Assembly: GCF_022429625.1 (NCBI RefSeq)
Contig: NZ_CP092483.1
Location: 2,294,001 to 2,358,000, forward strand
Length of the DNA stretch: 64,000 nt
Source: Devosia lacusdianchii
GTDB taxonomy: Bacteria > Pseudomonadota > Alphaproteobacteria > Rhizobiales > Devosiaceae
Reading direction: 5' to 3'
Positions within the stretch are counted from its first letter, which is position 1; each line of letters starts with the position of its first letter. Shown here one piece after another: positions 6,499 through 52,839 of this stretch. Position numbers and translations under genes: made by a program. Below the pieces are notes generated by a model. That model was not told the DNA's origin. It made no database searches and saw only the letters and a list, made by a program, of their open reading frames with translations.

Positions 6499-6510
6499 GG
6501 TCGCGGCTCC

Positions 6511-6705: not shown

Positions 6706-6716
6706 GCTCGTTGTCC

Positions 6717-38016: not shown

Positions 38017-38604
38017 ATGCGTCTTCTGCTGGCTCTGGCCATTCTGGTTCTCTCTCCCACCCTGGCTTTCGCCCATACCGGCGTCGGGCACACAGCCGGG
38101 TTCTTCCACGGCTTCGAGCACCCCATCGGCGGGATCGACCACGTGCTGGCCATGGTTGCCGTCGGCGTCTTCGCCTATGTGATGGGCGGGCGGGCACTCT
38201 GGCTGGTGCCGCTTTCCTTCGTTGCCATGATGGTGGCCGGATTTGCCCTCGGCATCGCCCAGGTCGAGATTCCCTTTGTTGAACTGGGTATCGCTCTGTC
38301 GAGCGTCGTTATCGGCGCGGCAGCGGCGCTGGGTCGGCCTATGCCCACCGCGGGGGCCATGGCGCTGGTTGGCATGTTCGCGATCTTTCACGGCCATGCG
38401 CACGGGGCAGAAATGCCCGCCGATACCAGTGGGCTAACCTACGCGGCAGGCTTCGTGACAGCCACCGCCCTGCTCCATCTGATCGGAATCGCAGCCACCT
38501 TTGGCGTCGCCAAGATTATCGGAAAGTATGGCAAGCTCGCCGCGCGGATTGGCGGCGCTGCATTTGCGCTGGGCGGCATGGGCGTGCTGGCCGGCTGGTT
38601 CTAG
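38017..38604 (+). CDS. HupE/UreJ-family metal permease-like protein
   Basis: Protein of 195 residues preceded by GGAAGGA. A signal-like first segment (MRLLLALAILVLSPTLAFA) precedes the family signature HTGVGHTAGFFHGFEHPIGGIDHVLAM, rich in His. Five or six more hydrophobic segments follow, with a second His cluster FHGHAHGAEMP in the middle. Relatives move nickel or cobalt for hydrogenase or urease. No such enzyme is next to it here, so the metal is unknown. Confidence 0.85.
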   Translation: MRLLLALAILVLSPTLAFAHTGVGHTAGFFHGFEHPIGGIDHVLAMVAVGVFAYVMGGRALWLVPLSFVAMMVAGFALGIAQVEIPFVELGIALSSVVIGAAAALGRPMPTAGAMALVGMFAIFHGHAHGAEMPADTSGLTYAAGFVTATALLHLIGIAATFGVAKIIGKYGKLAARIGGAAFALGGMGVLAGWF

Positions 38605-38624
38605 CTATCTACGAGAAGACCGAT

Positions 38625-38651
38625 CCGGAAGGGGTTGCCATGCCCCTCCGG
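38625..38651 (+). terminator. Terminator-like hairpin after hupE gene
   Basis: CCGGAAGGGG at 38625-38634 pairs with CCCCTCCGG at 38643-38651 (one bulge). It lies 20 bases after the hupE stop and before tRNA-Gly. No T run follows, so termination strength is doubtful. Confidence 0.4.
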
Positions 38652-38686
38652 CTCGCGCTAATGCCTTTCGCGTCGGTTTCGACCGG

Positions 38687-38760
38687 GCGGGTATAGCTCA
38701 GTGGTAGAGCAGCAGCCTTCCAAGCTGAATATGCGGGTTCGATTCCCGCTACCCGCTCCA
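38687..38760 (+). tRNA. tRNA-Gly (TCC anticodon)
   Basis: A 74-base cloverleaf. The acceptor GCGGGTA pairs with TACCCGC, the D arm is TAGCTCAGTGGTAGAGC, the anticodon loop CTTCCAA has TCC, the T arm contains GGTTCGATTCC, and the gene has an encoded CCA end. Confidence 0.97.
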
Positions 38761-38868
38761 ATTTCCAGCTTTGACGTGAGACGGCGTCGATGACGCGCAG
38801 TGGCTGTCCGAAGCCAGCCAGCATTCGCAGTCACGCGTGTGTCACACCCCGGGTAGAAACTCCCTCCC

Positions 38869-39552
38869 GTGCAGCGCGCGACGGCGAAGAACTCCACCGC
38901 AGAAAACTTGCAGGCAGCTTGTGAAGAGCTGCTGCGTATTGCTGCGCATCCCGATGAAGTTACCGTCCGCAGTATCGCCCGGCGCGCGGGAGCCAGCGTC
39001 GGGGCGATCAGCTATCATTTCGGCAGCGTCGAGCAGCTGATCTTTTCGGTCGCGCAGCGGGTCTATCTACGCCTCAACGCCGAGCGACTGACCCTGCTGC
39101 ATGCGGCGGTCCAGCGCGCACATCCGGCACCAGTGCCGCTGGAAGACCTGATTGTCGCTCTCGTCGGCCCCTCGATACGCTGGAGCCTTGATTCCACGTC
39201 CAGGTATAGCGTCATGCGGCACATGACGACCTTGGCCCAGGCCAGCGATCACCCCGAGATCTTTCGCTCGATGATAGAGGATGTGGAACACCACCTGCTG
39301 TTCATTCCGCATTTTCGCAAGATCGCGCCGTGGCTGGATGAGGTCGATATCGGCTTTCGCATCTCATGCCTGCTCGGCGTCCGGTCGCAGATGACGCGCA
39401 GCCGCGATCGCACTGATGAACTGACCGGTCATCGCCTCGACCTGGACGATCCCGAACTGGTTCTGGCACAAGTGGTGGCGGCGACGGCGCCAATGTTCAC
39501 CGCGCCCGCCGCGCCCAAGTCGAACACCGTTCCAAACTCGTCACGTCACTGA
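38869..39552 (+). CDS. TetR-family transcriptional regulator
   Basis: Protein of 227 residues if the GTG at 38869 is the start; there is no clear ribosome site, and internal starts are possible. The DNA-binding part reads VTVRSIARRAGASVGAISYHFGSVEQLI (about residues 32-59). The C-terminal domain resembles TetR regulators with DUF1956-like helices (RHMTTLAQASDHPEIFRSMI). It lies 44 bases before the first metallophosphoesterase gene in the same direction and may control that cassette. Confidence 0.8.
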   Translation: MQRATAKNSTAENLQAACEELLRIAAHPDEVTVRSIARRAGASVGAISYHFGSVEQLIFSVAQRVYLRLNAERLTLLHAAVQRAHPAPVPLEDLIVALVGPSIRWSLDSTSRYSVMRHMTTLAQASDHPEIFRSMIEDVEHHLLFIPHFRKIAPWLDEVDIGFRISCLLGVRSQMTRSRDRTDELTGHRLDLDDPELVLAQVVAATAPMFTAPAAPKSNTVPNSSRH

Positions 39553-39596
39553 GACGACGGCCGATTAGGTCCTGTTCCGTCAACGGAGCCAGACCG

Positions 39597-40451
39597 ATGG
39601 GCGAAACGACCTTCATTCACCTGACCGACCTTCATGTCGGCAATCCCGCAGTGGTCGATGACCACCTGTTCAGCGATACCTCGGCTACCCTCGAGCGCGT
39701 GCTCGAGATGATCGGCATGATGGACCAGACGCCGCAATTCATCATCGCCAGCGGCGACCTGACCAATCGCGGCGATGTCGACAGCTACCTCCAGCTCAAG
39801 GCCATCATGGCGTCGATCGACCTGCCGGTAATCTATGCCATCGGCAATCACGATACCCGCGCCGGCTTTTACCAGGGGATTCTTGAACGGAACACCGATC
39901 TCGATGCACCCTATGATCACGACAGGATCGTCGCCGGCATCCACGTTATCACGCTCGATACCACCACACCCGGCCAGATCGGGGGCAGTCTCGAACCCGA
40001 ACAATTCGCCTGGCTGGAGGCGGCGCTCGATGCCCATCCCGCGCTACCCAAGCTGATCGTTGCCCACCACGCGCCCGCGCTCGGCGATACTCCGCCCTGG
40101 GATCATTGGCGGACGATCGAATTCGGACAATCCCAGCAATTGGCCACCCTGCTCAAGGGCCGCAATATTCTTGCGATCCTCTCTGGCCACATCCACCACG
40201 ACCGGTTCTCGGTGTGGCATGGCATCCCGGTCATTGTCGGCATGGGTCAGCATGCGGCCACCGACATCCTGACCAGCAACGTCTTGCGCATGGTGGAGGG
40301 CGCCTCATTCGGCATCGGCACCATCCGTCGCTCCGGCCTCACCATGGCGCTGGTGCCGCTGCCGCAGACGCGTGCCGAGCTCAACCGCTACGACCTCAAA
40401 CTCCTTCGACAGAAGCAGGAAACTGCCCTGGCCGAAGCCGCCGCCAGCTGA
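39597..40451 (+). CDS. Metallophosphoesterase, GpdQ/CpdA type (copy 1)
   Basis: Cytoplasmic protein of 284 residues (no signal peptide), preceded by GGAG. All calcineurin-like metal motifs are present: D11-x-H13, SGDLTNRGD with Asp54 and Asn57, GNHD at 83-86, HH at 157-158 and GHIH at 197-200. The family includes cyclic-nucleotide and glycerophosphodiester phosphodiesterases. It is the first gene of a cassette with a solute-binding protein and a tyrosine-phosphatase-type enzyme, so a phosphodiester brought in by an ABC importer is the likely substrate (inference). A paralogue is at 43281-44156. Confidence 0.85.
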   Translation: MGETTFIHLTDLHVGNPAVVDDHLFSDTSATLERVLEMIGMMDQTPQFIIASGDLTNRGDVDSYLQLKAIMASIDLPVIYAIGNHDTRAGFYQGILERNTDLDAPYDHDRIVAGIHVITLDTTTPGQIGGSLEPEQFAWLEAALDAHPALPKLIVAHHAPALGDTPPWDHWRTIEFGQSQQLATLLKGRNILAILSGHIHHDRFSVWHGIPVIVGMGQHAATDILTSNVLRMVEGASFGIGTIRRSGLTMALVPLPQTRAELNRYDLKLLRQKQETALAEAAAS

Positions 40452-40468
40452 CACCCAGGACCAATCCC

Positions 40469-41767
40469 ATGATCAAGCGCACGTTTCTCAAACTGCTGGC
40501 CGCCGCCAGCCTGGGCTACACCGCCCTTTCCGGCGTTGCCTTCGCCCAGATGGCCGATGCCATCACCGAGCCGGTGACCATCACGTTTTACAACTACAAC
40601 CTCGCCACAGCGAGTGCCGGCGCCGATGCCACGCGCGAGCTGATCGCCCAGTTCGAAGAAGAAAATCCCAATATCAAGGTTGAAGCGATCGGCGTTCCGT
40701 CCAACGAGATCGTCACGCGCCTCCAGGCCGACATGGCCGCCGGCCAGCAACCCGATATTGCCCAACTGGTTTTCCGCGACCTGATCTACATTGCCAGCGA
40801 CCTGGGCGCCAATGCGCTTGAGGACATGGCCGGCCCCCAAGCCTATGCCGATCTCACCGACGGCATGATCCCGCGCGGGCTCGACCTGGGCAAGGTCGAC
40901 GACAAGACCTATGGCCTGGCCTATACCTTCTCGACCCCGATCCTCTATTACAATGCCGACCTCTTTCGCGCCGCCGGTCTCGACCCGGAAAACCCACCCA
41001 AGACCTGGGCCGAGGTCAAAACCGCCGCGGAAGCCATCGTCGAAAACACAGATGCGGAAGGCTTCTTCCCCGGCGCCTATGGTCCGGCCGACGGCACCTT
41101 CGTCTATCAGGCCATTTTGATGTCCAACGGCGGCAAGGTCCGTGATGGCAATACGCTGACCTTTGCCGATCCCGAGGGCATCGAGGCCGTGCAGATGCTG
41201 CGTGACATGGTCGATAGCGGCGCCCATGCCCGCATTGACCCGGCCAATCCGAGCGAGGCCATGGCGGCCGGGCAACTGGGCATGTTCCTCTATACCAGCG
41301 CAGTGCAAAACAGCCTTTCGACCGCCTCGGAAGGCAATTGGGAGTTGCGCGTCGCCGCCATGCCCGCGTTTGGCGACAAGCCGACCGCGCCCACCAATTC
41401 GGGCAGCGCGCTCTATACTTTCTCCAAGGATCCGATCAAGCAGCGCGCCTCCTACGAGCTGATGAAGTTCCTGACCTCGAGATACGGCTACACGATCATC
41501 ACCAGCAAGATCGGCTATCTGCCGCTGCGTCTCGATATCGTCGACGATCCCGCATTCCTCGGCCCCTGGACAGCCGAGCACCCACTGATCCGCCCCAATC
41601 TCGAACAGCTCTCGCGCCTCACCCCCAATGTCGCCTTCCCCGGCCCCAACTATCGCCAGGCCGAAGCAATGATGAAGGACGCCGTTACCGAAGCCGTGCT
41701 GGGTGAGGGCGATGTGGCCGAAGTCCTCACCAGCGCGCAGGAAAACGCGCAGGGGCTGATGCCCTGA
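40469..41767 (+). CDS. ABC transporter solute-binding protein, UgpB-like (copy 1)
   Basis: Exported protein of 432 residues with a signal peptide of about 26 residues (MIKRTFLKLLAAASLGYTAL). The mature part is a family 1 extracellular binding protein (PVTITFYNYNLATA, LQADMAAGQQPDIAQ, YGLAYTFSTPILYYNADLFRAAGLDPENPPKTW in pieces, RASYELMKFLTS). This group includes UgpB for glycerol-3-phosphate and sugar-binding proteins. No permease gene follows in this copy; it may share the transporter at 45526-49175. A stem-loop follows the stop. Confidence 0.9.
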   Translation: MIKRTFLKLLAAASLGYTALSGVAFAQMADAITEPVTITFYNYNLATASAGADATRELIAQFEEENPNIKVEAIGVPSNEIVTRLQADMAAGQQPDIAQLVFRDLIYIASDLGANALEDMAGPQAYADLTDGMIPRGLDLGKVDDKTYGLAYTFSTPILYYNADLFRAAGLDPENPPKTWAEVKTAAEAIVENTDAEGFFPGAYGPADGTFVYQAILMSNGGKVRDGNTLTFADPEGIEAVQMLRDMVDSGAHARIDPANPSEAMAAGQLGMFLYTSAVQNSLSTASEGNWELRVAAMPAFGDKPTAPTNSGSALYTFSKDPIKQRASYELMKFLTSRYGYTIITSKIGYLPLRLDIVDDPAFLGPWTAEHPLIRPNLEQLSRLTPNVAFPGPNYRQAEAMMKDAVTEAVLGEGDVAEVLTSAQENAQGLMP

Positions 41768-41774
41768 TCGTTCC

Positions 41775-41796
41775 GGGCGCGGGTATTCCCGCGCCC
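41775..41796 (+). promoter_or_regulatory. Intercistronic stem-loop after solute-binding protein 1
   Basis: GGGCGCGGG at 41775-41783 pairs perfectly with CCCGCGCCC at 41788-41796 around TATT. No T run follows, and the next gene's ribosome site lies 15 bases on. It probably protects the upstream message from 3' decay. Confidence 0.65.
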
Positions 41797-41822
41797 ACCC
41801 TCCCGACAAATTGGAGGCAGCC

Positions 41823-42557
41823 ATGACTATGGCAGCGATGCGTCATTGGCCTTTGCCTGACACCCACAATGTTCGCGATCTCGGCGGCTACGCTCGCAAG
41901 AGTGGCGGGAACACCCAGTGGGGCCGCCTGCTGCGTGGCGAAGCGCTGCATCCCCTGAGCCAGGATAGCATCGACCATCTCGTCGCGCAGAACCTTGCAC
42001 TAGTGATCGATCTGCGCGGCCCGCACGAAACCGGCCACACGCAGCATCCCTTTCGCGATCATGCCGGCGTCGCCTACCGCAACATTCCGCTGTTCGACGT
42101 GCTGTCCCCCATCGCCATGGCGAAACCGCCCTTCGACATGACGCAGCGCTATCGCGACGCGCTGGACAAATGTGGGCCACGGCTGGCCGAGGTCTTCCGC
42201 GCCATCATCACTGCATCGCCCGGCGTAATCCTCTTCCATTGCACCGCCGGCAAGGATCGCACCGGCATCGTCGCCGCCCTGCTGCTGCTGCTTGCCGGTG
42301 TGGAGCGCAACGACGTCGCCGAGGACTATGCCCTCACCGCCGCCGCCGCTGGCCTGATCGCGCCATTGCGCGCGCGGGCCTTGGCAGCGGGTGGCGAACC
42401 GGATCATGTCGACCGCATGCTGGCCAGCGATGCTGCGACAATGCTGGCCATGCTCGACCACCTCGATGTCCGCCACGGCGGCATCCACCGCTACCTGGCG
42501 GAGATCGGCCTGGCGCCTGGCGACGTCGACAAACTGCGTGACCGGCTATGCGCCTGA
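41823..42557 (+). CDS. Tyrosine-protein-phosphatase-type enzyme (copy 1)
   Basis: Protein of 244 residues, no signal peptide. The start is chosen for TTGGAGG just upstream. The catalytic loop HCTAGKDRTG has Cys140 and Arg146, preceded by HNVRDLGGY at residues 15-23 and IDLRG near 62-66. This is the Y_phosphatase3 group, whose members include phosphoinositide and broad phosphomonoester phosphatases (LipA of Listeria, MptpB). Its place in a transport cassette fits a metabolic phosphatase better than a signalling one. A paralogue is at 47311-48045. Confidence 0.85.
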   Translation: MTMAAMRHWPLPDTHNVRDLGGYARKSGGNTQWGRLLRGEALHPLSQDSIDHLVAQNLALVIDLRGPHETGHTQHPFRDHAGVAYRNIPLFDVLSPIAMAKPPFDMTQRYRDALDKCGPRLAEVFRAIITASPGVILFHCTAGKDRTGIVAALLLLLAGVERNDVAEDYALTAAAAGLIAPLRARALAAGGEPDHVDRMLASDAATMLAMLDHLDVRHGGIHRYLAEIGLAPGDVDKLRDRLCA

Positions 42558-42562
42558 TCGCT

Positions 42563-43132
42563 TCAGGCCGCGATGGCCGCCCAGCACATGGCGGCAACAA
42601 GGTCACGGTCATCCTTCGACAGGGTGGATGCCGTCAGCCGGCGTCGGCGCAGCGTGTTGCGGATCGAGCCACGCACAAAGCTGATGATCATCGTCGCCGG
42701 ACCCGGGCGCACCACGCCGTCGGCCTGTGCCAGCTCGATCATGGCAATGCCGTGGGCCACGAAGGGCGCAAACACCGTTATCGCGTCATTCAGCGCTATC
42801 AGCGGATTGTTGTCGAGATAATCGAACAGGCGCGCCCGCTGCGCGTCCTGCCAGATGAAGTCGATATAGTCGCCGATATACTGACGGACCCGCATTTCCG
42901 GCGTGCTGGCAGGATCGGCCGGCGTCATCAGGCTCTCGATCATCTCTGCGGTCGTGCGTTCGTAGACGCCCAGAACCAGGGCTTCCTTGGACGCGAAGTA
43001 ATTGTAGAGCGAGCCGGTCGCTACGCTCGCCTCTTCGGCAATCGCCGACATCGAGCACTGCAGTCCGTTGCGAACGATCAGGCGCGCAGCCGCGGCCAGA
43101 ATACGCTCGCGCTTATCGAGAACGGCATCCAT
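42563..43132 (-). CDS. TetR-family repressor between the two cassettes
   Basis: Protein of 189 residues. The helix-turn-helix reads CSMSAIAEEASVATGSLYNYFASKEALV (about residues 25-52). It is convergent with phosphatase 1 and divergent from metallophosphoesterase 2. A perfect 18-bp palindrome lies 5 bases before its start codon, so it almost certainly represses itself and possibly the divergent ABC operon. Confidence 0.88.
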   Translation of the reverse strand: MDAVLDKRERILAAAARLIVRNGLQCSMSAIAEEASVATGSLYNYFASKEALVLGVYERTTAEMIESLMTPADPASTPEMRVRQYIGDYIDFIWQDAQRARLFDYLDNNPLIALNDAITVFAPFVAHGIAMIELAQADGVVRPGPATMIISFVRGSIRNTLRRRRLTASTLSKDDRDLVAAMCWAAIAA

Positions 43133-43136
43133 CTAC

Positions 43137-43154
43137 TGAATGAACCTTCATTCA
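43137..43154. promoter_or_regulatory. Perfect TetR operator palindrome
   Basis: TGAATGAACCTTCATTCA: 8-base arms, fully complementary, two-base centre. TGAATGA-type arms are common among TetR-family operators. It sits directly upstream of the divergent repressor gene at 42563-43132. Confidence 0.75.
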
Positions 43155-43163
43155 TCTGTCATC

Positions 43164-43184
43164 GAGACACGTTAGCTGTGTCTC
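43164..43184. promoter_or_regulatory. Second inverted repeat in the divergent control region
   Basis: GAGACAC at 43164-43170 and GTGTCTC at 43178-43184 form a perfect 7-7-7 inverted repeat, 9 bases from the TetR palindrome and of different sequence. It could be a second regulator's site on the operon promoter or a leader hairpin. Confidence 0.45.
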
Positions 43185-43280
43185 CATCGTCGCACAAGTC
43201 GCTTTTAGAAAATCAAGGCGAAACAGTCAGTTACAGCAGAAGTAGCGGTCTGGGCCGCTGCCGGAGCAAGGAGAACGCTC

Positions 43281-44156
43281 GTGTCCGAAACCATCACTTT
43301 CGTGCATCTCACCGATCTGCATATCGGCAATCCGGCCGTGCAGGATGATCATCTCTATTCCGACACTAGCGCCACGTTGCGGGCCATCCTCAGCGAGATC
43401 AAGACGTTGGTGCCGCAGCCAAAATTCATTGTCGCCAGCGGCGACCTGACCAATCGCGGCGACCAGGCAAGCTACGACAACCTCAAGGCCATTCTGGCCG
43501 AAGCCGAGCTCGACATGCCAGTGCTGTTCGCGCTGGGCAACCACGACCGTCGCGACGGCTTCTACCCCGCCATGCTCGGCCGCACCGACAACGTCCGCGC
43601 ACCCTACGACCACTCTCAAGTCATCGCCGGCGTCCATATCATCGTGCTCGATTCCAGCGTGCCTGAGAAAGTCGGCGGCGATTTCGAACCTGGTCAGATC
43701 GAATGGCTCAAGGCCGAACTCAGCAACCATGCCGACTTGCCCAAACTGATCGTCATGCACCACGCACCCTCGCTCGATGCTGACCCGGCGATGGAATGGG
43801 AATCGATGTCGATCGCCGGCACCGAGGCGCTGCGGCAGGCTGTCGAAGGCAAGCACGTCATCGGCATTCTTTCCGGCCACATCCATTTCGACCGCGTCTC
43901 CAATTGGTACGGCATTCCGGTGGTCGTCGGTATCGGCCAACATGCCGCCACTGACGTAACCTGGCTGCATGAAGGCCTGCGCATGCTGTCGGGCGCCTCC
44001 TATGCCATCGGCATGCTGCGCCCGTCGGGCCTCTCTATCACCTTTGCGCCGCAGCCGGCCGAACGTCGCGAGCTCAACAGCTTCACCTGGGCCGGCATGG
44101 CAGAAATGCTGAAGAAATACCAAGCCGACACCGCCGCCGTTGCGGCCGCCGAATGA
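43281..44156 (+). CDS. Metallophosphoesterase, GpdQ/CpdA type (copy 2)
   Basis: Cytoplasmic protein of 291 residues from GTG, with AAGGAGAA upstream. The metal ligands match copy 1: D12-x-H14, SGDLTNRGD, GNHD at 86-89, MHHAP and GHIHFD. It is closely related to the protein at 39597-40451 over its full length. It heads the complete ABC operon running to 49175. The stop overlaps an alternative start of the next gene. Confidence 0.85.
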   Translation: MSETITFVHLTDLHIGNPAVQDDHLYSDTSATLRAILSEIKTLVPQPKFIVASGDLTNRGDQASYDNLKAILAEAELDMPVLFALGNHDRRDGFYPAMLGRTDNVRAPYDHSQVIAGVHIIVLDSSVPEKVGGDFEPGQIEWLKAELSNHADLPKLIVMHHAPSLDADPAMEWESMSIAGTEALRQAVEGKHVIGILSGHIHFDRVSNWYGIPVVVGIGQHAATDVTWLHEGLRMLSGASYAIGMLRPSGLSITFAPQPAERRELNSFTWAGMAEMLKKYQADTAAVAAAE

Positions 44157-44173
44157 ACAGGAAACCTTTCAAC

Positions 44174-45463
44174 ATGCTTCGCACGACAATCCTTGCCGGC
44201 TTGCTGGCCCTGTCTGCGGCTGCGCCAGTGCTAGCCCAGACCATGGCCGCGGCGGTCGACCAGCCCGTCACGATCCGATTCTACAACTACAACCTCGCCA
44301 CTGCCGGTCTCGGCGCCGAGGCGACGCAGAAGTTGATCAACGAATTCATGGCCGCCAACCCAAATGTCACCGTTGAAGGCGTTGGCTATTCCAGCGCCGA
44401 TGCCAGCCGCATCCAGGCCGACATGGCCGCTGGTCAGCAGGTCGATCTGGTCCAGACCGTGTTCAGCGATCTCGATTTCTCGGTCAGCAACTTCGGCGCG
44501 CAGGCGCTCGAGGACATCGTTCCGACCGGCGAGCTGGCGGCTCATCTCGAAGGCATGCATCCAAACGGCACCAAGCTGGGCGTGCTCAACGGCAAGACCT
44601 ACGGCCTGGCCTACACCTTCTCCACGCCTGTGCTGTTCTACAACGCGGACCTGTTCCGTCGGGCCGGGCTTGATCCCGATAGCCCACCCAAGACCTGGGC
44701 AGCTGTCAAGGAGGCAGCTCTTGCCATCGAGGGCAAGACTGACGCCGAAGGCTTTTCTGGGGGCATCCTCGGCGTCGGTGCCGCTGATTGGCTGTTCCAG
44801 GGCGTCGTTCGCTCCAACGGCGGCGAAGTCATCTCGCGCGACCGCACGACGTTGAAGTTCGCCGAACCGGAAGCCGTCGAGGCAGTGCAGATGCTGCGCG
44901 ACCTCGGCGATGCAGGCGTCTATGAAACCTATGAAGGCCTCGGCGCCGTCGAAGCCATGTCGGCCGGCAAGCTCGCCATGTATCTCCAGACCAGCGCGCT
45001 CCAGGGCGGTCTCGTGGCCGGTGCTGCCGGCAATTTCGAGCTGCGCTCGTCCACCATGCCGCAGTTCGGCGACAAGCCGACCCGCCCCAACAATTCGGGT
45101 TCGGCTCTCACCATCCACACCACTGACCCGGTCAAGCAGCGCGCTGCCTGGGAGCTGATGAAGTTCCTGACCTCCGAGCACGGCTATACCGTCATCACCT
45201 CGGAAATCGGCTACCTGCCCTTGCGCCCAGCCATCGTCAACGATCCGAAATATCTCGCTGGCTGGATCGCCGAGCACCCGCTCGTCGCGCCCAATCTCGA
45301 GCAGCTCGACCGTCTCGAGCCCTGGGACCCGATGCCGGGCCCGAACTACCGCCAGATCGTCAAGACAATGATGGATGCGGTGGAAATGTCGGTCTTCGGC
45401 GGTGCCGATGTTGCGGCAACCCTGGCCGATGCGCAGGCCAATGCCCAGGCGCTGATGCCGTAA
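44174..45463 (+). CDS. ABC transporter solute-binding protein, UgpB-like (copy 2)
   Basis: Exported protein of 429 residues from MLRTTILAGLL, with AGGAAA upstream; an ATG 7 codons earlier overlaps the previous stop (ATGA) and is possible. The signal peptide ends near VLAQT. The sequence tracks copy 1 through FYNYNLATAGLGAEAT, IQADMAAGQQVDL, YGLAYTFSTPVLFYNADLF, RAAWELMKFLTS and the shared C-terminal ANAQALMP. It is probably the primary binding protein for the permeases that follow a stem-loop. Confidence 0.92.
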   Translation: MLRTTILAGLLALSAAAPVLAQTMAAAVDQPVTIRFYNYNLATAGLGAEATQKLINEFMAANPNVTVEGVGYSSADASRIQADMAAGQQVDLVQTVFSDLDFSVSNFGAQALEDIVPTGELAAHLEGMHPNGTKLGVLNGKTYGLAYTFSTPVLFYNADLFRRAGLDPDSPPKTWAAVKEAALAIEGKTDAEGFSGGILGVGAADWLFQGVVRSNGGEVISRDRTTLKFAEPEAVEAVQMLRDLGDAGVYETYEGLGAVEAMSAGKLAMYLQTSALQGGLVAGAAGNFELRSSTMPQFGDKPTRPNNSGSALTIHTTDPVKQRAAWELMKFLTSEHGYTVITSEIGYLPLRPAIVNDPKYLAGWIAEHPLVAPNLEQLDRLEPWDPMPGPNYRQIVKTMMDAVEMSVFGGADVAATLADAQANAQALMP

Positions 45464-45467
45464 CCTC

Positions 45468-45499
45468 TTGGTCCGCCACTGCACGGAATGGCGGACCAA
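45468..45499 (+). promoter_or_regulatory. Intercistronic stem-loop after solute-binding protein 2
   Basis: TTGGTCCGCCA at 45468-45478 pairs perfectly with TGGCGGACCAA at 45489-45499 (11 bp, 10-base loop), starting 4 bases after the stop. There is no U run. It resembles the stabilising hairpins between binding-protein and permease genes that give high binding-protein output. Confidence 0.7.
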
Positions 45500-45525
45500 A
45501 CTCTCACTTCCGAAAGGAGCGCGCC

Positions 45526-46446
45526 ATGGCGCCGGCTTCGGCTACTCAACCCAGACTTCGGCGCATGACCCAGTCGCGCGTGGCGCCCTGGATTTATCTG
45601 GCGCCCGCGCTCATCACCCTTGTGGTCTGGATCTATTGGCCCCTGGTCGACGCCGTTCGGCTGAGCTTCTACCAGTGGAACATGCTGCCCAACTCGCCGC
45701 AGCTGTTTGTCGGCTGGGAGAATTACCAACGCATCTTCTCGCTGCCCAAATTCTGGCAGGCTCTGCGCAATACCGGTGTCTATATCCTCGGGCTGCTGCC
45801 CCTGGCGGTACTGATCCCGTTGGTCATCGCCATCTACACCCACGACCTGCCCAAGCGCTCGCGTAACATCTACCGCGCTATCATCTTCGTGCCGATGATC
45901 ATCGCCCCCGTCGTTGCCGCCGCCGTATGGCGTTGGTTGCTCGATCCCGGCTACGGCCTTGCCAACCAGATACTCAAGGGTATGGGGCTCGACCCAGTCA
46001 AATTCCTCAGCGACCCCCGTATCGCCATCTGGACCGTCATCGTCATCACCGGCTGGAAGCTGATGGGCTTTTCGACCCTGATCCTCGCCGCCGCCAATGC
46101 CAACATAAATCCCTCGCTGATCGAAGCCGCCCGAATGGACGGCGCCAGCAAGTGGGAAGTCATTCGCGACGTGCGCTTGCCCTTGCTGAGCTCGACGGTG
46201 CTGTTCCTCGTGGTGATGACCATCCTGCTCGGCGCGCAGTGGAGCTTCACCTACATCAACGTGCTGACCGGTGGCGGCCCCTTGGGCGCGACCACCAACA
46301 TCTACTACCTGCTCTGGGATTTCGGCTTCTCTACTATGTCGGTGGGTTGGGGCTCGGCCTCGGCGGTCATCCTTTTCCTTGGCTTCGGCCTCATAGCCTT
46401 CGTGCTGTTTCGCCTGATCGACAGGTATTCCTTCCATGACAACTGA
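45526..46446 (+). CDS. ABC transporter permease, UgpA/MalF type
   Basis: Inner-membrane protein of 306 residues with six predicted spans, preceded by AAAGGAG. The cytoplasmic EAA loop that docks to the ATPase reads EAARMDGASKWEVIRDVRLPLL (about residues 202-223 in one stretch). It overlaps the second permease by 11 bases. It forms the pore with that protein and takes substrate from the binding protein at 44174. Confidence 0.95.
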   Translation: MAPASATQPRLRRMTQSRVAPWIYLAPALITLVVWIYWPLVDAVRLSFYQWNMLPNSPQLFVGWENYQRIFSLPKFWQALRNTGVYILGLLPLAVLIPLVIAIYTHDLPKRSRNIYRAIIFVPMIIAPVVAAAVWRWLLDPGYGLANQILKGMGLDPVKFLSDPRIAIWTVIVITGWKLMGFSTLILAAANANINPSLIEAARMDGASKWEVIRDVRLPLLSSTVLFLVVMTILLGAQWSFTYINVLTGGGPLGATTNIYYLLWDFGFSTMSVGWGSASAVILFLGFGLIAFVLFRLIDRYSFHDN

Positions 46447-47311
46447 TGCGCTCGCCCGCCCCGCGCTGCGCCGGCCGGCCACCCTGCGCCGGATTTCCGC
46501 CCAGTCCGGCCTTAACACCGCCGCCGGTCATGTGCTGATGGTGCTGCTGTCGATCTTCTGCCTGTTTCCGGTTTACTGGATGCTGGTCAGCTCCTTCCGG
46601 CCGGCCAATACGCTGTTTGAAACCAGCCTCTGGCCGACGCAGGCGTCGCTCGACAATTACACCACGGCCATCGACGCCATCCCGATTGCCCGGATGCTGG
46701 CCAATACGCTGGTCTTCTCGGCCGTCTCGACATTGCTTCAACTGCTGACCGGGATTCTGGCCGCCTTCGCCTTCGCCCGCTGGAAATTCCGCTTCGAGAA
46801 GCTGGTCTATACCGCCGTCGCCCTCACCTGGCTGGTCCCCTTCCAGGTTGTGATGATCCCCAATTACCTGCTCATCGCGCAGATGGGTCTGCTCGACAGC
46901 GTCATGGCACTGATCCTGCCCAATCTGGCTTCAGCACTGGCCATCATGCTGCTGGCCCAGGCCATGCGCGGCTTCCCGCGTGAAGTCATCGAGGCGGCGC
47001 GCATGGATGGCGCCGGCAACTGGCGCATCCTGTGGGAAGTGCTGGTCCCAAATCTCAGCGGCACCATCGCCTCGCTCGCCATCCTCATCTTTATTTCGAC
47101 CTGGAACGAGTATTTCTGGCCGCTGCTGCTGAGCCGCACCGCCGAAAACAGCGTCATCCAGATCGGCATTCAAATGTTCATGACCGCAGAGGGCAACCAA
47201 TGGGGGCCGCTAATGGCAGCCTCTACCCTGGCCAGCCTGCCGGTCCTCGTCATCTACGTCGTCCTGCAACGGCAGGTCGTCCAGTCCTTCATGAAATCCG
47301 GAATTCGCTGA
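46436..47311 (+). CDS. ABC transporter permease, UgpE/MalG type
   Basis: Protein of 291 residues with six predicted spans. The EAA loop is EAARMDGAGNWRILWEVLVP (about residues 186-205), followed by the MalG-type ending with STWNEYFWPLLLS. It overlaps its partner permease by 11 bases. Its stop shares a base with the next start (TGATG). Confidence 0.95.
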   Translation: MTTDALARPALRRPATLRRISAQSGLNTAAGHVLMVLLSIFCLFPVYWMLVSSFRPANTLFETSLWPTQASLDNYTTAIDAIPIARMLANTLVFSAVSTLLQLLTGILAAFAFARWKFRFEKLVYTAVALTWLVPFQVVMIPNYLLIAQMGLLDSVMALILPNLASALAIMLLAQAMRGFPREVIEAARMDGAGNWRILWEVLVPNLSGTIASLAILIFISTWNEYFWPLLLSRTAENSVIQIGIQMFMTAEGNQWGPLMAASTLASLPVLVIYVVLQRQVVQSFMKSGIR

Positions 47312-48045
47312 TGCAAACCCCGCAAACCCGCCACCTGCCAATCCCCGGCACGCACAATGTCCGCGACCTCGGCGGCTACCCCGCTGCCGGCGGCCACACG
47401 CAGTGGCGACGCCTCCTGCGCGCCGATGCCCTCCATCGCCTTGATGAGGCCGGGATCGGCGAACTGGTCGCGTCCGGCGTCAGCACCGTCATCGATCTTC
47501 GCCATGGCGACGAACTGGCCCACCAGCCAAACCCCTTCCATGGTCACGCCACGGTCTCCTACCACAACGTGTCTTTGCTCGAGGGCCTGTCGCCAAACCT
47601 GATGGACGAGGGCGACCTGCTGCTCGGGCTCTACAAGATGGCCCTGCTGCAGCGTCAGCCGGCTCTGGCTGAGGTGTTGCGTATCATAGCGGAGGCCCCG
47701 CCCGGGGCCGTGCTGTTCCACTGCACCGCAGGCAAAGACCGCACAGGCATCGTCGCAGCGCTCCTGCTTGGCGTTGCCGGGGTCGAAGCCGGTTTGATCA
47801 TCGACGACTATGCGCTCACCGCTGGCCTCATCGCGCCCATCGTCGCCGATATAACCGCCGGTGCTGTGGCGCGCGGAGCCGATCCCGAGAGCTTCAAGCG
47901 CTTTCTCGCCTCCGAACCCGAAACCATGGCGGCCACCCTGGCCTTCATCGACGCCGAGTTCGGCTCGATGCCTGCCTATCTCGGCCGGATCGGTCTCGAC
48001 GACGCCACCATTGATCGCCTGCGAAACCGTCTGTTGGGAGAATGA
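47311..48045 (+). CDS. Tyrosine-protein-phosphatase-type enzyme (copy 2)
   Basis: Protein of 244 residues, no signal peptide. HCTAGKDRTG carries Cys138 and Arg144; HNVRDLGGY is at residues 15-23 and STVIDLRHGDEL near 58-69. Both the length and the position of HNVRDLGGY match copy 1 (41823-42557). It is embedded between the permease and ATPase genes with 1-base and near-4-base junctions, so it is expressed as part of the importer. This supports a role in processing the imported compound. Confidence 0.88.
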   Translation: MQTPQTRHLPIPGTHNVRDLGGYPAAGGHTQWRRLLRADALHRLDEAGIGELVASGVSTVIDLRHGDELAHQPNPFHGHATVSYHNVSLLEGLSPNLMDEGDLLLGLYKMALLQRQPALAEVLRIIAEAPPGAVLFHCTAGKDRTGIVAALLLGVAGVEAGLIIDDYALTAGLIAPIVADITAGAVARGADPESFKRFLASEPETMAATLAFIDAEFGSMPAYLGRIGLDDATIDRLRNRLLGE

Positions 48046-48047
48046 CC

Positions 48048-49175
48048 ATGGCCAATCTCGCCATCACGGACGTCAAGAAGAGCTATGACGGCAAGCCCGT
48101 CCTCCACGGCATCGACGTGACCATCCCGGACGGTCATTTCGCCGTCATCGTCGGTCCCTCCGGCTGCGGCAAGTCAACCCTCCTCCGCATGATTGCCGGA
48201 CTTGAGGACATCACCTCGGGCACCATCGCGATCGGTGGCACGGTAATGAACGACATCGAGCCATCCGATCGCGGCTGCGCCATGGTGTTCCAGAACTACG
48301 CGCTCTACCCGCACATGACCGTACGCCAGAACATCGCCTATCCCCTGCGCATCGCGAAACTGCCCGCCGCTGAGCGGGACAAACGCGTGGAACAGGCCGT
48401 CAAAATCCTCGACCTCACGGAGTATCTTGACCGCCGTCCGGCTCAGCTTTCGGGTGGCCAGCGCCAGCGCGTCGCCATGGGCCGCGCCATCGTGCGTGAA
48501 CCCGACGTGTTCCTCTTCGACGAGCCCCTCAGCAACCTCGACGCTCTGCTGCGCGTGCAGATGCGCATCGAGATCAAGCGCCTGCACAAGCGCCTCAACG
48601 CCACCTCGATCTTTGTCACCCACGACCAGGTCGAAGCCATGACCCTGGCCGATACGCTCATCGTCATGAATGGTGGCCGGGTCGAGCAAATCGGCTCCCC
48701 CGCCGAAATCTACCGCAGGCCTGCCTCAGTCTTCGTCGCCGGCTTCATGGGCGCTCCTGCCATGAACCTGCTGCCCGCCACCGTGAGCAATGATGGCGAC
48801 GTCACGCTCGACCTGCTCGCCGCCAACGCCCCGATCGGACGCGCACCCCTAGCCCAGGGCAGCCTGATCACCCTTGGCATTCGCCCCGAAGACATCGCTC
48901 TCTCGCCGCAGGCGAACCAGGGCCTTGCCGCCAGCGTCGAACTCGTCGAAGAGCTCGGTGGCTCCCGCGTGGCCTATTGCAAACTCTCAGGTAAGGAGGT
49001 GGCCGTCGTACTGCCGCCAGGCGACGAGGACTACGAAGGCAAGACCGTTTGGCTTACCCTCCGCAGCCAGGCGCTGCATGCCTTCGACCGCGTCACCGGC
49101 GAGCGCATCGACGTGCGGTTCGCCGACCCATCGAACAGGTTTACCAACGCGCGCGAAACGCACGAGTCCGCGTAA
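48048..49175 (+). CDS. ABC transporter ATPase, UgpC/MalK type
   Basis: Protein of 375 residues from MANLAITDVKKSYDG. The ATG two codons earlier overlaps the upstream stop, but GGGAGA is spaced better for this start. Walker A GPSGCGKST is at 36-44, LSGGQ at 134-138, Walker B DVFLFDEP at about 153-160, and a C-terminal TOBE domain is present. It energises the permeases at 45526-47311 and may also serve binding protein 1. Confidence 0.95.
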   Translation: MANLAITDVKKSYDGKPVLHGIDVTIPDGHFAVIVGPSGCGKSTLLRMIAGLEDITSGTIAIGGTVMNDIEPSDRGCAMVFQNYALYPHMTVRQNIAYPLRIAKLPAAERDKRVEQAVKILDLTEYLDRRPAQLSGGQRQRVAMGRAIVREPDVFLFDEPLSNLDALLRVQMRIEIKRLHKRLNATSIFVTHDQVEAMTLADTLIVMNGGRVEQIGSPAEIYRRPASVFVAGFMGAPAMNLLPATVSNDGDVTLDLLAANAPIGRAPLAQGSLITLGIRPEDIALSPQANQGLAASVELVEELGGSRVAYCKLSGKEVAVVLPPGDEDYEGKTVWLTLRSQALHAFDRVTGERIDVRFADPSNRFTNARETHESA

Positions 49176-49229
49176 CCGCCGACGGCTCCCGGCGGCAATC
49201 AACAGCCGGGACCACCCATACTTTGAAGG

Positions 49230-49679
49230 TCACGCGTCGCTCTGGCTCTTGATCAGGGCCTCGAGCATGTCGAGCAGCTTTTCCATTTCCGCATGGCCAT
49301 ACCGCGCTTCGAGCTCGGTATAGATGGCGCGGCGCTCGGGCGAGACTTCCTCGATCAACGCCATGCCGGCCGGAGCAATGGCCAGCTGAACCCGCCGACC
49401 ATCGTCCTCGAACTTGCCGCGCGTGATAAAGCCGCGATCCTCCAGCGCCTTGATGATGCGCGTCAGGCTGGGCGCCAGGATAGAGGCGCGCTCGGCGACT
49501 TCCGTCGCATCGAGCGGGCTCGATTCGCCGAGCACACGGATGACGCGCCATTGCTGCTCGGTTACATCGTGCCGCGCCAGCATGGGCCGGAATCTTGACA
49601 TCACGGCTTCGCGCGCCCGCAGGAGCGACATGGGCAGGGAACGGCGCGTATTGTGCGGCAGCAAGACGACCTCCGGCAT
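49230..49679 (-). CDS. hpaR: MarR-family repressor HpaR of the homoprotocatechuate pathway
   Basis: Protein of 149 residues. The N-terminal NTRRSLPMSLLRAREAVMSRFRPML is the HpaR hallmark, followed by the winged helix (DATEVAERASILAPSLTRIIKALEDRGFI) and wing GKFEDDGRRVQLAI. HpaR in Escherichia coli represses the meta-cleavage operon and is released by the aromatic substrate. It is transcribed away from hpaF, with a palindrome in the shared control region. Confidence 0.9.
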   Translation of the reverse strand: MPEVVLLPHNTRRSLPMSLLRAREAVMSRFRPMLARHDVTEQQWRVIRVLGESSPLDATEVAERASILAPSLTRIIKALEDRGFITRGKFEDDGRRVQLAIAPAGMALIEEVSPERRAIYTELEARYGHAEMEKLLDMLEALIKSQSDA

Positions 49680-49791
49680 GTCGGGCGGCTGGAAGGCAGG
49701 ACTGCCCCCTTGCGGCTATAGCGCTATCGGCCCTGCCAAGGCAACGGGGCCACCCTGCCCCAGATGCCTGCCAGAGGCCAAAAATCCATGC

Positions 49792-49820
49792 TTGACCTCT
49801 GCTCGCCAATTATTTAACAC
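49792..49820 (+). promoter_or_regulatory. Candidate promoter of the hpa operon
   Basis: TTGACC at 49792-49797 is followed after 17 bases by TAACAC (49815-49820), or after 16 by TTAACA. The -10 lies inside the palindrome at 49811-49828, so a bound repressor would block polymerase. Confidence 0.5.
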
Positions 49821-49828
49821 GTTAAATA
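49811..49828. promoter_or_regulatory. Candidate HpaR operator
   Basis: TATTTAACACGTTAAATA: two perfectly complementary 8-base arms around a 2-base centre, 33 bases before hpaF. Its A/T-rich, MarR-like form and location between hpaR and the catabolic genes mark it as the likely HpaR site. A near copy occurs at 56836-56853. Confidence 0.75.
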
Positions 49829-49860
49829 GATTGATTGCAACCGAACCTGAGGAGGGCGCG

Positions 49861-50247
49861 ATGCCGCATCTCTCCATCGAATATTCTGCCAATCTAGACG
49901 GCCATGTCGAGATGAACGCCTTTTGCCCGCTCATCAGGAAGACCATCCTGGAAAACGGCCCGTTTGAAATCGGCGCCGTGCGCGTACGGGCCTTCAGAGC
50001 GGATGCCTGGGCGGTTGCCGACGAACTGCCGGAGAACGGCTTTCTCGATATGTCCTTCCGCATCGGCCAGGGCCGAACGGCGGAAGAGAAGGAGCGCGTG
50101 GGCGCGGCGATCTTTGCCGCTGCCAGCAACTTTCTCGCCCCTCTTTTTACCACACCTCATTTCGCTCTCTCGCTCGAAATTCGGGAAATCGACGCGGCGC
50201 TGAGCTGGAAGAAGAATGCCATTCATCCGCGGCTGCGCGGAAAATAA
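49861..50247 (+). CDS. hpaF: 5-carboxymethyl-2-hydroxymuconate delta-isomerase
   Basis: Isomerises 5-carboxymethyl-2-hydroxymuconate in homoprotocatechuate breakdown. It has 128 residues, begins MPHLSIEYSANL (the penultimate proline becomes the catalytic N-terminal Pro after Met removal) and contains FRIGQGRTAEEKERVGAAIF. A strong GAGGAGGG precedes it. It is the first gene of the hpa operon, 10 bases before hpaE. Confidence 0.92.
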   Translation: MPHLSIEYSANLDGHVEMNAFCPLIRKTILENGPFEIGAVRVRAFRADAWAVADELPENGFLDMSFRIGQGRTAEEKERVGAAIFAAASNFLAPLFTTPHFALSLEIREIDAALSWKKNAIHPRLRGK

Positions 50248-50257
50248 CGGAAACCAA

Positions 50258-51775
50258 ATGTCTGATTTTGCGGAAAATCTGAAGAAGGCCGAGCGCTACC
50301 TTGCGCGGTTCAAGGCTAAAGCTGTGCTCAACCATATCAATGGCGAAGCGGTGCCGGCGCTCGACGGCGCGGTTTTCGAGACGATTTCGCCGGTCGATTT
50401 ACAGCCGCTCGCGAAGGTCGCCCTGGGCAAGGCGGCTGATATCGATCGCGCGGCCAAGGCAGCCAAAGCGGCTTTTCCCGCCTGGGCGACAATGAGCGGG
50501 GTAGCGCGCAAGGCGCTGCTGCACAAAATTGCCGATGCCATTGAGGCGCGGGCCGAGGAAATCGCCTTGGTCGAATGCATGGATACCGGCCAGTCGATCA
50601 GATTCATGGCCAAGGCAGCCTTGCGCGGTGCGGAAAATTTCCGCTTCTTTGCTGACCGTGCGCCCGAGGCACGCGATGGTGCCGCGATCCGCGGACCCGG
50701 CCAGCTCAATGTGACGAGCCGCAGCCCGATCGGCCCCGTCGGCATCATCACGCCCTGGAACACCCCGTTCATGCTCTCGACCTGGAAGATCGCGCCGGCT
50801 TTGGCTGCGGGCTGCACCGTGGTGCACAAGCCGGCGGAATTTTCGCCGCTGACAGCGCGGCTGCTGGTGGAAATCGCCGAGGAAGCGGGTCTGCCCAAGG
50901 GTGTGTGGAACCTCGTCAACGGTTTCGGCGAAGACGCCGGCAAGGCACTGACCGAGCACAAGGATATCAAGGCGATCGGCTTTGTCGGCGAGAGCCGCAC
51001 CGGCTCGCTGATCATGAAGCAGGGCGCCGATACCCTCAAGCGCGTGCATTTTGAACTGGGTGGCAAGAACCCGGTTATCGTCTTTGCCGATGCCGACCTC
51101 GAACACGCCGCCGATGCCGCCGTGTTCATGATCTACTCGCTCAATGGCGAGCGCTGCACCTCGTCTTCGCGTCTTCTGGTCGAAGCCTCGATCTATGAGC
51201 GGTTTACCGCCATGGTGGCGGAAAAGGCCCGGCGCATTCCGGTCGGCCATCCGCTCGACCCCAAGACTGTTGTGGGTCCGCTGATTCATCCCGAGCACGA
51301 AAAGAAGGTGCTCGACTATATCGCCGTCGGCCAGGCCGAGGGCGCGACCCTGGCGGCCGGGGGTGAAAAGCAGGCGGGACCGGGCGGCGGCTGCTATGTG
51401 ACGCCAACGCTCTTTACCCAGGTGCGCAACGACATGCGCATTGCCCAAGAGGAGATCTTTGGGCCGGTACTCAGCGCTATTCCCTTTGCTGATGAGGCCG
51501 AGGCGCTCGCAATAGCCAATGACGTGCCGTACGGGCTGACTGGCTATCTCTGGACCGCGGATGTGACGCGCGCGCTGCGCTTTACCGACGCGCTCGATGC
51601 GGGCATGATCTGGGTCAACTCAGAAAATGTCCGCCATCTGCCGACGCCGTTTGGCGGGGTCAAGAATTCCGGCATCGGCCGCGATGGCGGCGACTGGTCG
51701 TTCGACTTTTACATGGAAACCAAGAACGTTGCCTTTGCGACCGCGCCCCACGCGATCCAGAAGCTCGGCGGCTAG
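50258..51775 (+). CDS. hpaE: 5-carboxymethyl-2-hydroxymuconate semialdehyde dehydrogenase
   Basis: NAD-dependent oxidation of the ring-cleavage semialdehyde to the dicarboxylate. It has 505 residues, with ALDH motifs PWNTPFMLSTWKIAPALAAG (166-185), catalytic Glu266 in FELGGKNP and Cys300 in NGERCTSSSR. NSENVRHLPTPFGGVKNSGIGRDGG near the end is characteristic of HpaE. The starting MSDFAENLKKAERYL fits the family length. Confidence 0.93.
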   Translation: MSDFAENLKKAERYLARFKAKAVLNHINGEAVPALDGAVFETISPVDLQPLAKVALGKAADIDRAAKAAKAAFPAWATMSGVARKALLHKIADAIEARAEEIALVECMDTGQSIRFMAKAALRGAENFRFFADRAPEARDGAAIRGPGQLNVTSRSPIGPVGIITPWNTPFMLSTWKIAPALAAGCTVVHKPAEFSPLTARLLVEIAEEAGLPKGVWNLVNGFGEDAGKALTEHKDIKAIGFVGESRTGSLIMKQGADTLKRVHFELGGKNPVIVFADADLEHAADAAVFMIYSLNGERCTSSSRLLVEASIYERFTAMVAEKARRIPVGHPLDPKTVVGPLIHPEHEKKVLDYIAVGQAEGATLAAGGEKQAGPGGGCYVTPTLFTQVRNDMRIAQEEIFGPVLSAIPFADEAEALAIANDVPYGLTGYLWTADVTRALRFTDALDAGMIWVNSENVRHLPTPFGGVKNSGIGRDGGDWSFDFYMETKNVAFATAPHAIQKLGG

Positions 51776-51810
51776 ACCCGGCCGCCCGTTCAGCTGCAAT
51801 CAGAGCGCAC

Positions 51811-51836
51811 CGGGGCAAGGCAAGTATCTTGCCCCG
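51811..51836 (+). promoter_or_regulatory. Stem-loop directly before hpaD
   Basis: CGGGGCAAG at 51811-51819 pairs perfectly with CTTGCCCCG at 51828-51836 (8-base loop), in the 74-base hpaE-hpaD gap and ending 1 base before AAGGAGG of hpaD. It may act as an mRNA-processing or stability element; the ribosome site itself is left free. Confidence 0.55.
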
Positions 51837-51849
51837 CAAGGAGGAAAGC

Positions 51850-52830: not shown

Positions 52831-52839
52831 GCAAGTAAG

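Follow-up and report, generated by a model that had tools for sequence, protein, structure and literature searches.

The locus described here lies in a 64,000-nucleotide stretch of the genome of Devosia lacusdianchii (contig NZ_CP092483.1, positions 2,294,001 to 2,358,000 of the forward strand; the whole stretch is hereafter called the window). It contains, twice and in the same order, genes for a metallophosphoesterase (MPE), a UgpB-like solute-binding protein (SBP) and a Cys-phosphatase of the Y_phosphatase3 family (PTP). The second set also includes two permeases and the ATPase of an ATP-binding cassette (ABC) importer of the CUT1 type, and its PTP gene sits inside the transporter operon. 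This arrangement had been recognized in an earlier sequence-only reading, and matches to PF00149, SBP_bac_8 and PF13350 bear it out. The features of the locus, in window coordinates, are as follows.

38828-38845, + strand: Pho-box-like direct repeat CAGTCACGCGTGTGTCAC, upstream of the lineage-1 operon (2 mismatches to CTGTCAYN4CTGTCAY)
38869-39552, + strand: TetRup, TetR-family regulator of lineage 1 (PF00440 and PF17939)
39597-40451, + strand: MPE1, class III metallophosphoesterase of lineage 1 (PF00149, 58.5 bits; tree)
40448-41767, + strand: SBP1, UgpB-like solute-binding protein of lineage 1 (SBP_bac_8, 126.5 bits)
41811-42557, + strand: PTP1, Cys-phosphatase of lineage 1 (Y_phosphatase3 PF13350, 190.9 bits; tree)
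42563-43132, - strand: TetRmid, TetR-family regulator of lineage 2, divergent from MPE2 (PF00440)
43137-43154, no strand: palindrome TGAATGAACCTTCATTCA, predicted TetRmid operator (conservation across loci)
43145-43162, + strand: Pho-box-like repeat CCTTCATTCATCTGTCAT, overlapping the operator's right half (match to the Pho-box pattern)
43281-44156, + strand: MPE2, lineage 2 (PF00149, 61.6 bits; family alignment)
44153-45463, + strand: SBP2, lineage 2 (SBP_bac_8, 98.1 bits)
45526-46446, + strand: permease 1, UgpA-like (BPD_transp_1 PF00528; NF007852, 120 bits, cut-off 335)
46436-47311, + strand: permease 2, GlcU/UgpE-like (BPD_transp_1 PF00528; NF040932, 140.7 bits, cut-off 340; NF008210, 131.1 bits, cut-off 297)
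47311-48045, + strand: PTP2, lineage 2 (Y_phosphatase3 PF13350, 196.3 bits)
48042-49175, + strand: ABC ATPase of the UgpC/MalK type (NF008653, 518.2 bits, over the cut-off of 432)

The corresponding genes of the two sets share 50-57% identity (MPE1 and MPE2, 53% over 269 columns; SBP1 and SBP2, 57% over 407 columns; PTP1 and PTP2, 50% over 246 columns). A search of the whole genome, which is one contig of 4,355,240 bases, found PF13350 in PTP1 and PTP2 only. SBP1 was scanned as the longer frame 40106-41767, and its true start is probably the ATG at 40469; PTP2 was scanned as the longer frame 47032-48045, and PTP1 probably starts at an internal ATG. Among the matches listed, the named relatives are mostly Devosia. 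A 266-amino-acid open frame (42548-43348, + strand) was considered as a further gene and discarded, because it has no family match and sits opposite the TetRmid gene.

The two operon lineages

Genomes of named species were scanned with an MPE alignment, and the best 80 of 197 relatives gave 76 loci, a few genomes supplying two of them. The loci were annotated by tblastn; segments below 35% identity were dropped, as were minus-strand matches except those to TetRmid. L143, L146 and L149-L151 are the same records as L036, L030, L066, L034 and L064, and were counted once.

Two operon types recur in these loci. In type 2, a minus-strand TetRmid gene is followed by MPE2-SBP2-permease 1-permease 2-PTP2 and, in most cases, by the ATPase gene; its hosts are Devosia, Chelatococcus, Brucella/Ochrobactrum, Rhizobium, Microvirga, Bartonella tamiae, Paracoccus and others. 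Type 1, found in Rhizobium, Neorhizobium, Mesorhizobium, Microvirga, Aquibium and others, has the order TetRup-(ABC)-MPE1-SBP1-permease 1-permease 2-PTP. In quick trees (LG+G4; long branches were flagged for MPE and PTP), the types formed separate PTP clades of 31 and 38 rows with a Shimodaira-Hasegawa-like approximate likelihood ratio test (SH-aLRT) value of 98. Type 1 formed a group of 41 rows for SBP (SH-aLRT 100) and one of 41 rows for MPE (99), and 29 type-1 rows grouped in the trees of both permeases (99). The placement of L061 and L099 was not clean, and L044 and L059 each have a second SBP that fell nearer to lineage 1.

MPE1, SBP1 and PTP1 of the window belong to the type-1 clades, and MPE2, SBP2, PTP2 and the permeases to type 2. 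Because the genes are split in this way, the Devosia locus is, on phylogenetic grounds, two old sister operons joined together, type 1 being present here without permeases or ATPase. The duplicated cassette of the sequence-only reading is not supported, as both lineages are old and occur separately in other genera, where each has permeases of its own. A recent tandem duplication was rejected on the same trees, since in those of MPE, SBP and PTP alike the two lineages stay apart across genera (SH-aLRT 98-100).

A permease-less type-1 set (TetR-MPE-SBP-PTP) occurs in 12 of the 76 named loci, followed by a type-2 operon in 11 of them and directly by type-2 permeases in the twelfth. Most likely, to judge from this gene order, the Devosia lineage-1 set without permeases of its own feeds the lineage-2 transporter, so that two ligand specificities would be served by one channel. 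Use of the type-2 transporter by SBP1 would make sense of two losses of SBP2: in Rhizobium sp. Leaf306 (L071), TetRup-MPE1-SBP1-PTP1 is followed by Devosia-like permeases (86%) and an ATPase, without SBP2, while in Devosia psychrophila (L066) SBP1 and the permeases persist but SBP2 is gone, as is most of MPE2. Independently of this, a single type-2 operon contains two copies each of MPE and SBP in Rhizobium mayense (L059) and in genome G025 (L144); in a Pelagibacterium metagenome-assembled genome (L044), SBP alone is present twice. One further locus (L145, genome G003), with only a PTP1-like gene and a short SBP1 remnant, stands outside the count of twelve.

Conservation and mobility of the module

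The module is real, conserved and partly mobile. MPE adjoins SBP in 66 of the 76 MPE-anchored loci, the other ten being of an Agrobacterium type, and PTP is present in 62 of these 66. Conserved co-occurrence, which the sequence-only reading had proposed to look for in Hyphomicrobiales, extends to Rhodobacterales and Actinomycetota. Among the four loci without PTP, L076 ends at a contig edge, and the sequence continues in L038, L060 and L097. No hidden PTP was detected near L060, L097, L155 or L167 at an E value of 5, and none of the scanned genes beside these four loci encodes another phosphatase in its place.

The ten Agrobacterium-type loci (L047-L053 and L055-L057) contain an MPE2 orthologue (65-70% identity) without SBP, beside two ABC genes forming an exporter pair. 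In the one that was annotated (L053), the ABC genes encode fused exporter half-transporters, and a Na/Pi cotransporter and an Exo_endo_phos protein are encoded in the vicinity.

Clustering of the genes in 77 loci revealed no extra conserved catabolic gene beside the module. TetRup and TetRmid have cluster members in 35 and 31 of the 77 loci, respectively; the frames grouped in clusters 8 (16 loci) and 25 (6 loci) run antisense to PTP and MPE, their window members being assigned via coordinates, and clusters 9-24 are the neighbourhood common to the Agrobacterium-type loci. In the window, a homoprotocatechuate (meta-cleavage)-like cluster lies downstream (49414-55187), with CHMI, two aldehyde dehydrogenases, a glyoxalase-type dioxygenase and an FAA hydrolase; genes of this type are not conserved beside the module. 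Within the order, the SBP family was found in 3 of 297 genomes (at most five candidates were scored per genome), and of the two other than that of the window one has MPE and PTP and the other MPE only.

An SBP-anchored search of plasmids gave 23 records, 10 of them typed conjugative; 19 were read (H2, H5, H6 and H7 were left out), and MPE was linked in 18 and PTP in 16 of these loci. The MPE of L159 was assigned from annotation and Pfam. In Dietzia (L157), MPE lies about 5 kb upstream of SBP, behind an IS21 insertion. Gene order varies on actinobacterial plasmids: it is ABC-SBP-PTP-MPE-permease-permease in Arthrobacter and Microbacterium, PTP-MPE-ABC-SBP-permease-permease in Rhodococcus pyridinivorans and ABC-SBP-MPE-permease-permease in R. 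erythropolis, and the actinobacterial loci with shuffled order have RpiR or TetR regulators. Both MPE and PTP are missing beside the SBP of Embleya (L168), where the spot expected for MPE, directly before SBP, is occupied by a gene (5940-6845) for a metallo-beta-lactamase (MBL)-fold protein resembling RNase Z/cyclic-nucleotide phosphodiesterase, below curated cut-offs. In Rhizobium gallicum R602 (L171, 6923-8219), SBP is annotated as two overlapping pieces, and a frameshift is probable. On four Sulfitobacter/Pseudosulfitobacter plasmids (L154, L162, L163 and L164) the module stands beside TniB/TniQ/Mu-type transposase genes, and in L163 and L164 it lies between two copies of the same transposase set.

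A plasmid search with PTP2 gave 66 records; among the matches listed, at least 47 are Pseudosulfitobacter, one of them with the CUT1 module. Two PTP-anchored plasmids without a CUT1 importer were read, from Pseudosulfitobacter pseudonitzschiae (L172, 2136-8741) and Sulfitobacter alexandrii (L173, 2122-8747). Both encode an SBP_bac_5 protein, two permeases and two ATPases, followed by MPE and PTP genes that overlap by 4 bases. This importer is of the Opp/Dpp type, the ATPase scanned having an oligopeptide C-terminal region, and the two enzymes share 41-45% (MPE) and 40-49% (PTP) identity with those of the window. A ugpB gene and a Na/Pi cotransporter gene are found nearby in L173. We think that MPE and PTP both act on the imported compound, the strongest reason being that the same pair follows an unrelated importer.

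Predicted operator and Pho-box-like repeat

Between TetRmid and MPE2, the sequence TGAATGAANNTTCATTCA is exact in 27 of 32 loci and has at most one mismatch in 30; the palindrome has 3 mismatches in the Bartonella locus (L063) and is absent from L066, so that 31 of the 32 are within 3. Its conservation suggests that the palindrome before lineage 2 is probably a TetR operator. The genome of the window has one exact site and one with 2 mismatches. A wider TetR regulon was rejected, because in 10 of 10 other genomes the operator is the only site within 1 mismatch. A genome resembling D. equisanguinis (G343) contains two combined elements and, by name, two loci. A single regulon common to both operons was likewise discarded: in the scanned pieces upstream of lineage 1, even the nearest match to the lineage-2 operator has 5 mismatches.

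The Pho box is described, in the passages of the source that give its consensus, as two CTGTCAT direct repeats with a 4-nt spacer (PMC3131613). In the window and many other loci, the sequence CCTTCATTCA(C/T)CTGTCAT, which fits this layout with its pair of 7-nt repeats 4 nt apart, overlaps the operator's right half. Scored as the best of eight offsets beside the operator, the lineage-2 repeat is within 3 mismatches of CTGTCAYN4CTGTCAY in 29 of 31 loci, 22 of them with 2. In 28 loci it stands at one identical offset, in L063 four bases further, and L067 and L100 are exceptions; the downstream half YTGTCAY is found in 28 of the 31. A conserved TA (43173-43174) follows 10 bp after the repeat; Pho boxes have a usual distance to the -10 element. 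In 17 chosen type-2 representatives, the information content is 1.2-1.7 bits at the TGTCA and TA columns; from offset 50 onwards, where another conserved patch is included, it averages 0.54. A GCRCAAG patch is found 55-61 bp after the operator start (43192-43198 in the window), its last four columns reaching 1.2-1.7 bits in the same representatives. A scan for sigma-70 promoters gave no site in 38600-49600, a result that is uninformative as shuffled sequences average 2.5.

Upstream of TetRup, in lineage 1, a site within 3 mismatches was present in 16 of 39 pieces, compared with 24 of 780 random pieces, mostly coding, of the same loci. The site in the window lies 42 bp before TetRup, and in 7 of 10 other Devosia lineage-1 loci the best site is 39-43 bp upstream, with 0-4 mismatches; outside Devosia its position varies. 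The sequence-only reading had suggested looking for a Pho box, and a Pho-box-like element is thus present upstream of both lineages. In the whole genome, the pattern has 12 sites within 1 mismatch, compared with 2 for a reversed control. By eye, a CpdB-type phosphodiesterase/nucleotidase follows one of them and a third MPE another, but most of the rest have no recognizable phosphate gene downstream. This third metallophosphoesterase-like gene (L183, G000:C1:3599751; read by eye) starts 44 bp after its one-mismatch site. Upstream of the genome's own ugpB, the Pho-box pattern is matched with no fewer than 4 mismatches. The combined operator/Pho-box element was found in 15 of 75 genomes of the genus.

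Substrate, rival explanations and related systems

The contact roles of the E. coli UgpB residues have been described (PMC12718374). Mature numbering is used here; every letter agrees with the K-12 gene, and W169/W172 also with a PDB title. Twenty SBPs of the module were compared with 14 control SBPs, which are 14 of the 16 other matches to the UgpB model in the genome. Three phosphate-contact positions of UgpB (Ser121, Ser/Thr247 and the Tyr of GYLP) are kept in all 20, with Thr at position 247 in 18, and do not occur all together in any of the 14 controls; the fourth, Tyr42, is found in none of the 20. The glycerol contacts Glu66, Trp169 and Arg374 are likewise absent from all 20 SBPs, and Trp172 is kept in 12, including SBP2, and replaced by Phe in 8, including SBP1. 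Of two candidate columns for the Gly contact, one is a gap in 20/20, and the other, with Gly in 19/20 SBPs but also in 9/14 controls, is uninformative. SBP1 and SBP2 score 67.9 and 64.0 bits against the UgpB equivalog model NF008211, far below its cut-off of 411, whereas the genome's own UgpB, encoded elsewhere, exceeds it with 531.6 bits. The ATPase belongs to the UgpC subfamily (NF008653, of model type 'subfamily'). The predicted structure of SBP2, with a mean predicted local distance difference test (pLDDT) score of 89.9, has fold matches, the top structural match of the SBP being an oligosaccharide-binding protein. A second UgpB-like SBP (G000:C1:1093948-1095234; 321 bits, below the cut-off) has all four phosphate-contact positions and Arg374, with Asp in place of Glu66.

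The MPE family has the motifs of class III (calcineurin-like) phosphodiesterases, and the metal-binding residues are nearly invariant in 88 rows (DxH 87, GD 86, GNHD 88, HH 87, GHxH 87). MPE1 and MPE2 remain below the cut-offs of the equivalog models for SpdA (NF050112; 81.3 and 80.1 bits, cut-off 400) and CpdA (NF008359; 69.6 and 72.6 bits, cut-off 225). The PDB relatives of MPE1 include relatives of Rv0805, and MPE2 has a distant one there under the name 'phosphohydrolase' (2dxl, 3d03), which we take to be GpdQ. PTP1 and PTP2 belong to the PtpB/Y_phosphatase3 family, with PF13350 matches over the cut-off, the CX5R signature and a PtpB-like fold; CX5R is present in 69/69 PTP rows, 64 with HC..GKDRTG and 5 with Asn for His. 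Both enzymes, MPE and PTP, have no evident signal peptide and the SBP has one, as judged by eye, in agreement with the cytoplasmic location assumed in the sequence-only reading.

We consider it fairly probable that the locus serves to import and hydrolyse a phosphodiester other than a simple glycerophosphodiester, as a substrate-inducible, Pho-activated module in which MPE acts before PTP. The compound would be bound by the periplasmic SBP via the phosphate-contact positions common to UgpB-type proteins, and imported by the CUT1 permeases with the UgpC-type ATPase. In the cytoplasm, the class III MPE would cut the diester first, and PTP would then take off the remaining phosphate. Expression would need both phosphate limitation, through PhoB at the Pho-box-like repeat, and the substrate, through release of TetR from the operator overlapping the repeat's upstream half; the lineage-1 set (SBP1, MPE1 and PTP1) would share the lineage-2 transporter. 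Two findings weigh against such a module: PTP is truly missing from L038, and, with the Agrobacterium-type group set aside, no more than 37 of 66 loci have a linked ATPase gene, so that the other loci must borrow an ATPase.

In its most specific form, glycerophosphodiester uptake (glycerophosphocholine, glycerophosphoinositol and similar compounds), the sequence-only reading would make the locus a second Ugp system. The UgpB-like SBP, UgpA-like permease, UgpC-type ATPase and Pho-box-like element would fit it, as would Trp172 in 12 of the 20 SBPs and the presumed GpdQ among the distant relatives of MPE2. It appears quite unlikely, however, considering that the three other glycerol contacts are missing throughout, that a protein encoded elsewhere in the genome passes the UgpB cut-off, and that an sn-glycerol-3-phosphate product would need no dedicated phosphomonoesterase. 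The parts of the sequence-only reading that find support are the conserved linkage, the lack of evident signal peptides in both enzymes, three of the four phosphate contacts and the Pho-box-like element; for an inositol phosphate, which it also named, the data speak neither way. A somewhat unlikely form of the phosphodiester module is nucleotide salvage, in which 2',3'-cyclic nucleotides or short oligonucleotides would be converted by MPE to a mononucleotide and dephosphorylated by PTP; the 77 loci show no conserved nucleoside-catabolic gene beside the module, and we know of no nucleotidase among PtpB/Y_phosphatase3 proteins.

The family names (CpdA-like, tyrosine phosphatase) and the oligosaccharide-binding protein as top structural match would suit an importer of ordinary sugars with regulatory phosphatases, engaged in cyclic-nucleotide turnover or protein/lipid dephosphorylation. 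We hold this to be unlikely, because the MPE-PTP pair also stands behind an unrelated importer, and because MPE and SBP are doubled together in the L059 and L144 operons, as is expected if the diesterase matches the bound ligand; the phosphate-contact positions and the Pho-box-like site also argue against it. A recently acquired capacity to degrade man-made phosphodiesters, e.g. dialkyl phosphates, would account for the patchy occurrence (the promoter element in 15/75 genus genomes, the SBP in 3/297 order genomes) and for the presence on plasmids and beside TniB/TniQ-type transposase genes, but the two lineages branch deeply and extend over several families, which suggests an age greater than that of such compounds and makes this very improbable.

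The locus may also be read more boldly, although here we are tentative and lean slightly towards doubt, as a widespread mobile phosphodiester-salvage module, whose MPE-PTP pair plugs into two unrelated importer classes, whose SBP-MPE sets are exchangeable specificity cartridges sharing one transporter, and whose TetR operator, fused to a Pho box, works as an AND gate with phosphate hunger and the substrate as its inputs. As substrate one would then expect an opine-like or otherwise unrecognized environmental phosphodiester.

The sequence-only reading knew of no characterized system of such composition, but agrocinopine catabolism follows the same logic. In the Ti plasmid of strain C58, as set out in the relevant passages of the source, it comprises the AccABCDE importer, the phosphodiesterase AccF and the phosphatase AccG; a periplasmic binding protein and an ABC importer dedicated to a phosphodiester, a cytoplasmic phosphodiesterase, a putative phosphatase, repressor control and a plasmid location are, on the reading preferred here, features that the module would share with it (PMC4526662). 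The importer is of the AccA type there and CUT1 here, and AccR takes the place of TetR and the Pho-box-like site. The Opp-type variant of Pseudosulfitobacter is nearer to acc in architecture than the CUT1 module is, but no AccA is named among its 27 PDB relatives (E<=1e-25). AccF and AccG presumably belong to families different from MPE and PTP, and the likeness is one of logic only. More loosely, the module resembles xanthosan use by XanT-XanP in Xanthomonas, which combines dedicated uptake and hydrolysis of a sugar phosphodiester; as described in the part of the source that concerns it, that system employs a TonB-dependent transporter and a 2H-phosphoesterase, neither of which is in the module (PMC12807533).

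The Pho-regulated UgpBAEC-UgpQ system of E. coli K-12 has in common with the module a CUT1 importer, a UgpB-like SBP, a UgpC-type ATPase and a phosphodiesterase gene; it differs in having UgpQ as single phosphodiesterase, no adjoining phosphatase gene, and a binding protein whose Glu66, Trp169 and Arg374 are not common to the SBPs of the module. The dinucleotide (U3G)-binding protein of Thermus (PDB 7c0f series) is a UgpB-type SBP with a bound phosphodiester; the Ser and Thr positions are common to both, at 22-23% identity in structural alignments. Among open-licence papers we recognized no account of the module, which may be in print. The module adds to the known kind of system combining importer, phosphodiesterase and phosphatase.

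Many diesters of dissolved organic phosphorus have no known users, and the module provides a specific candidate importer and two enzymes. Its hosts are soil, plant-associated and marine bacteria, and it is also carried by plasmids typed conjugative; the promoter element can be used for finding further copies. If the proposed function is true, PtpB-type bacterial 'tyrosine phosphatases' would gain a role beyond protein signalling, and two binding proteins would share one CUT1 transporter.

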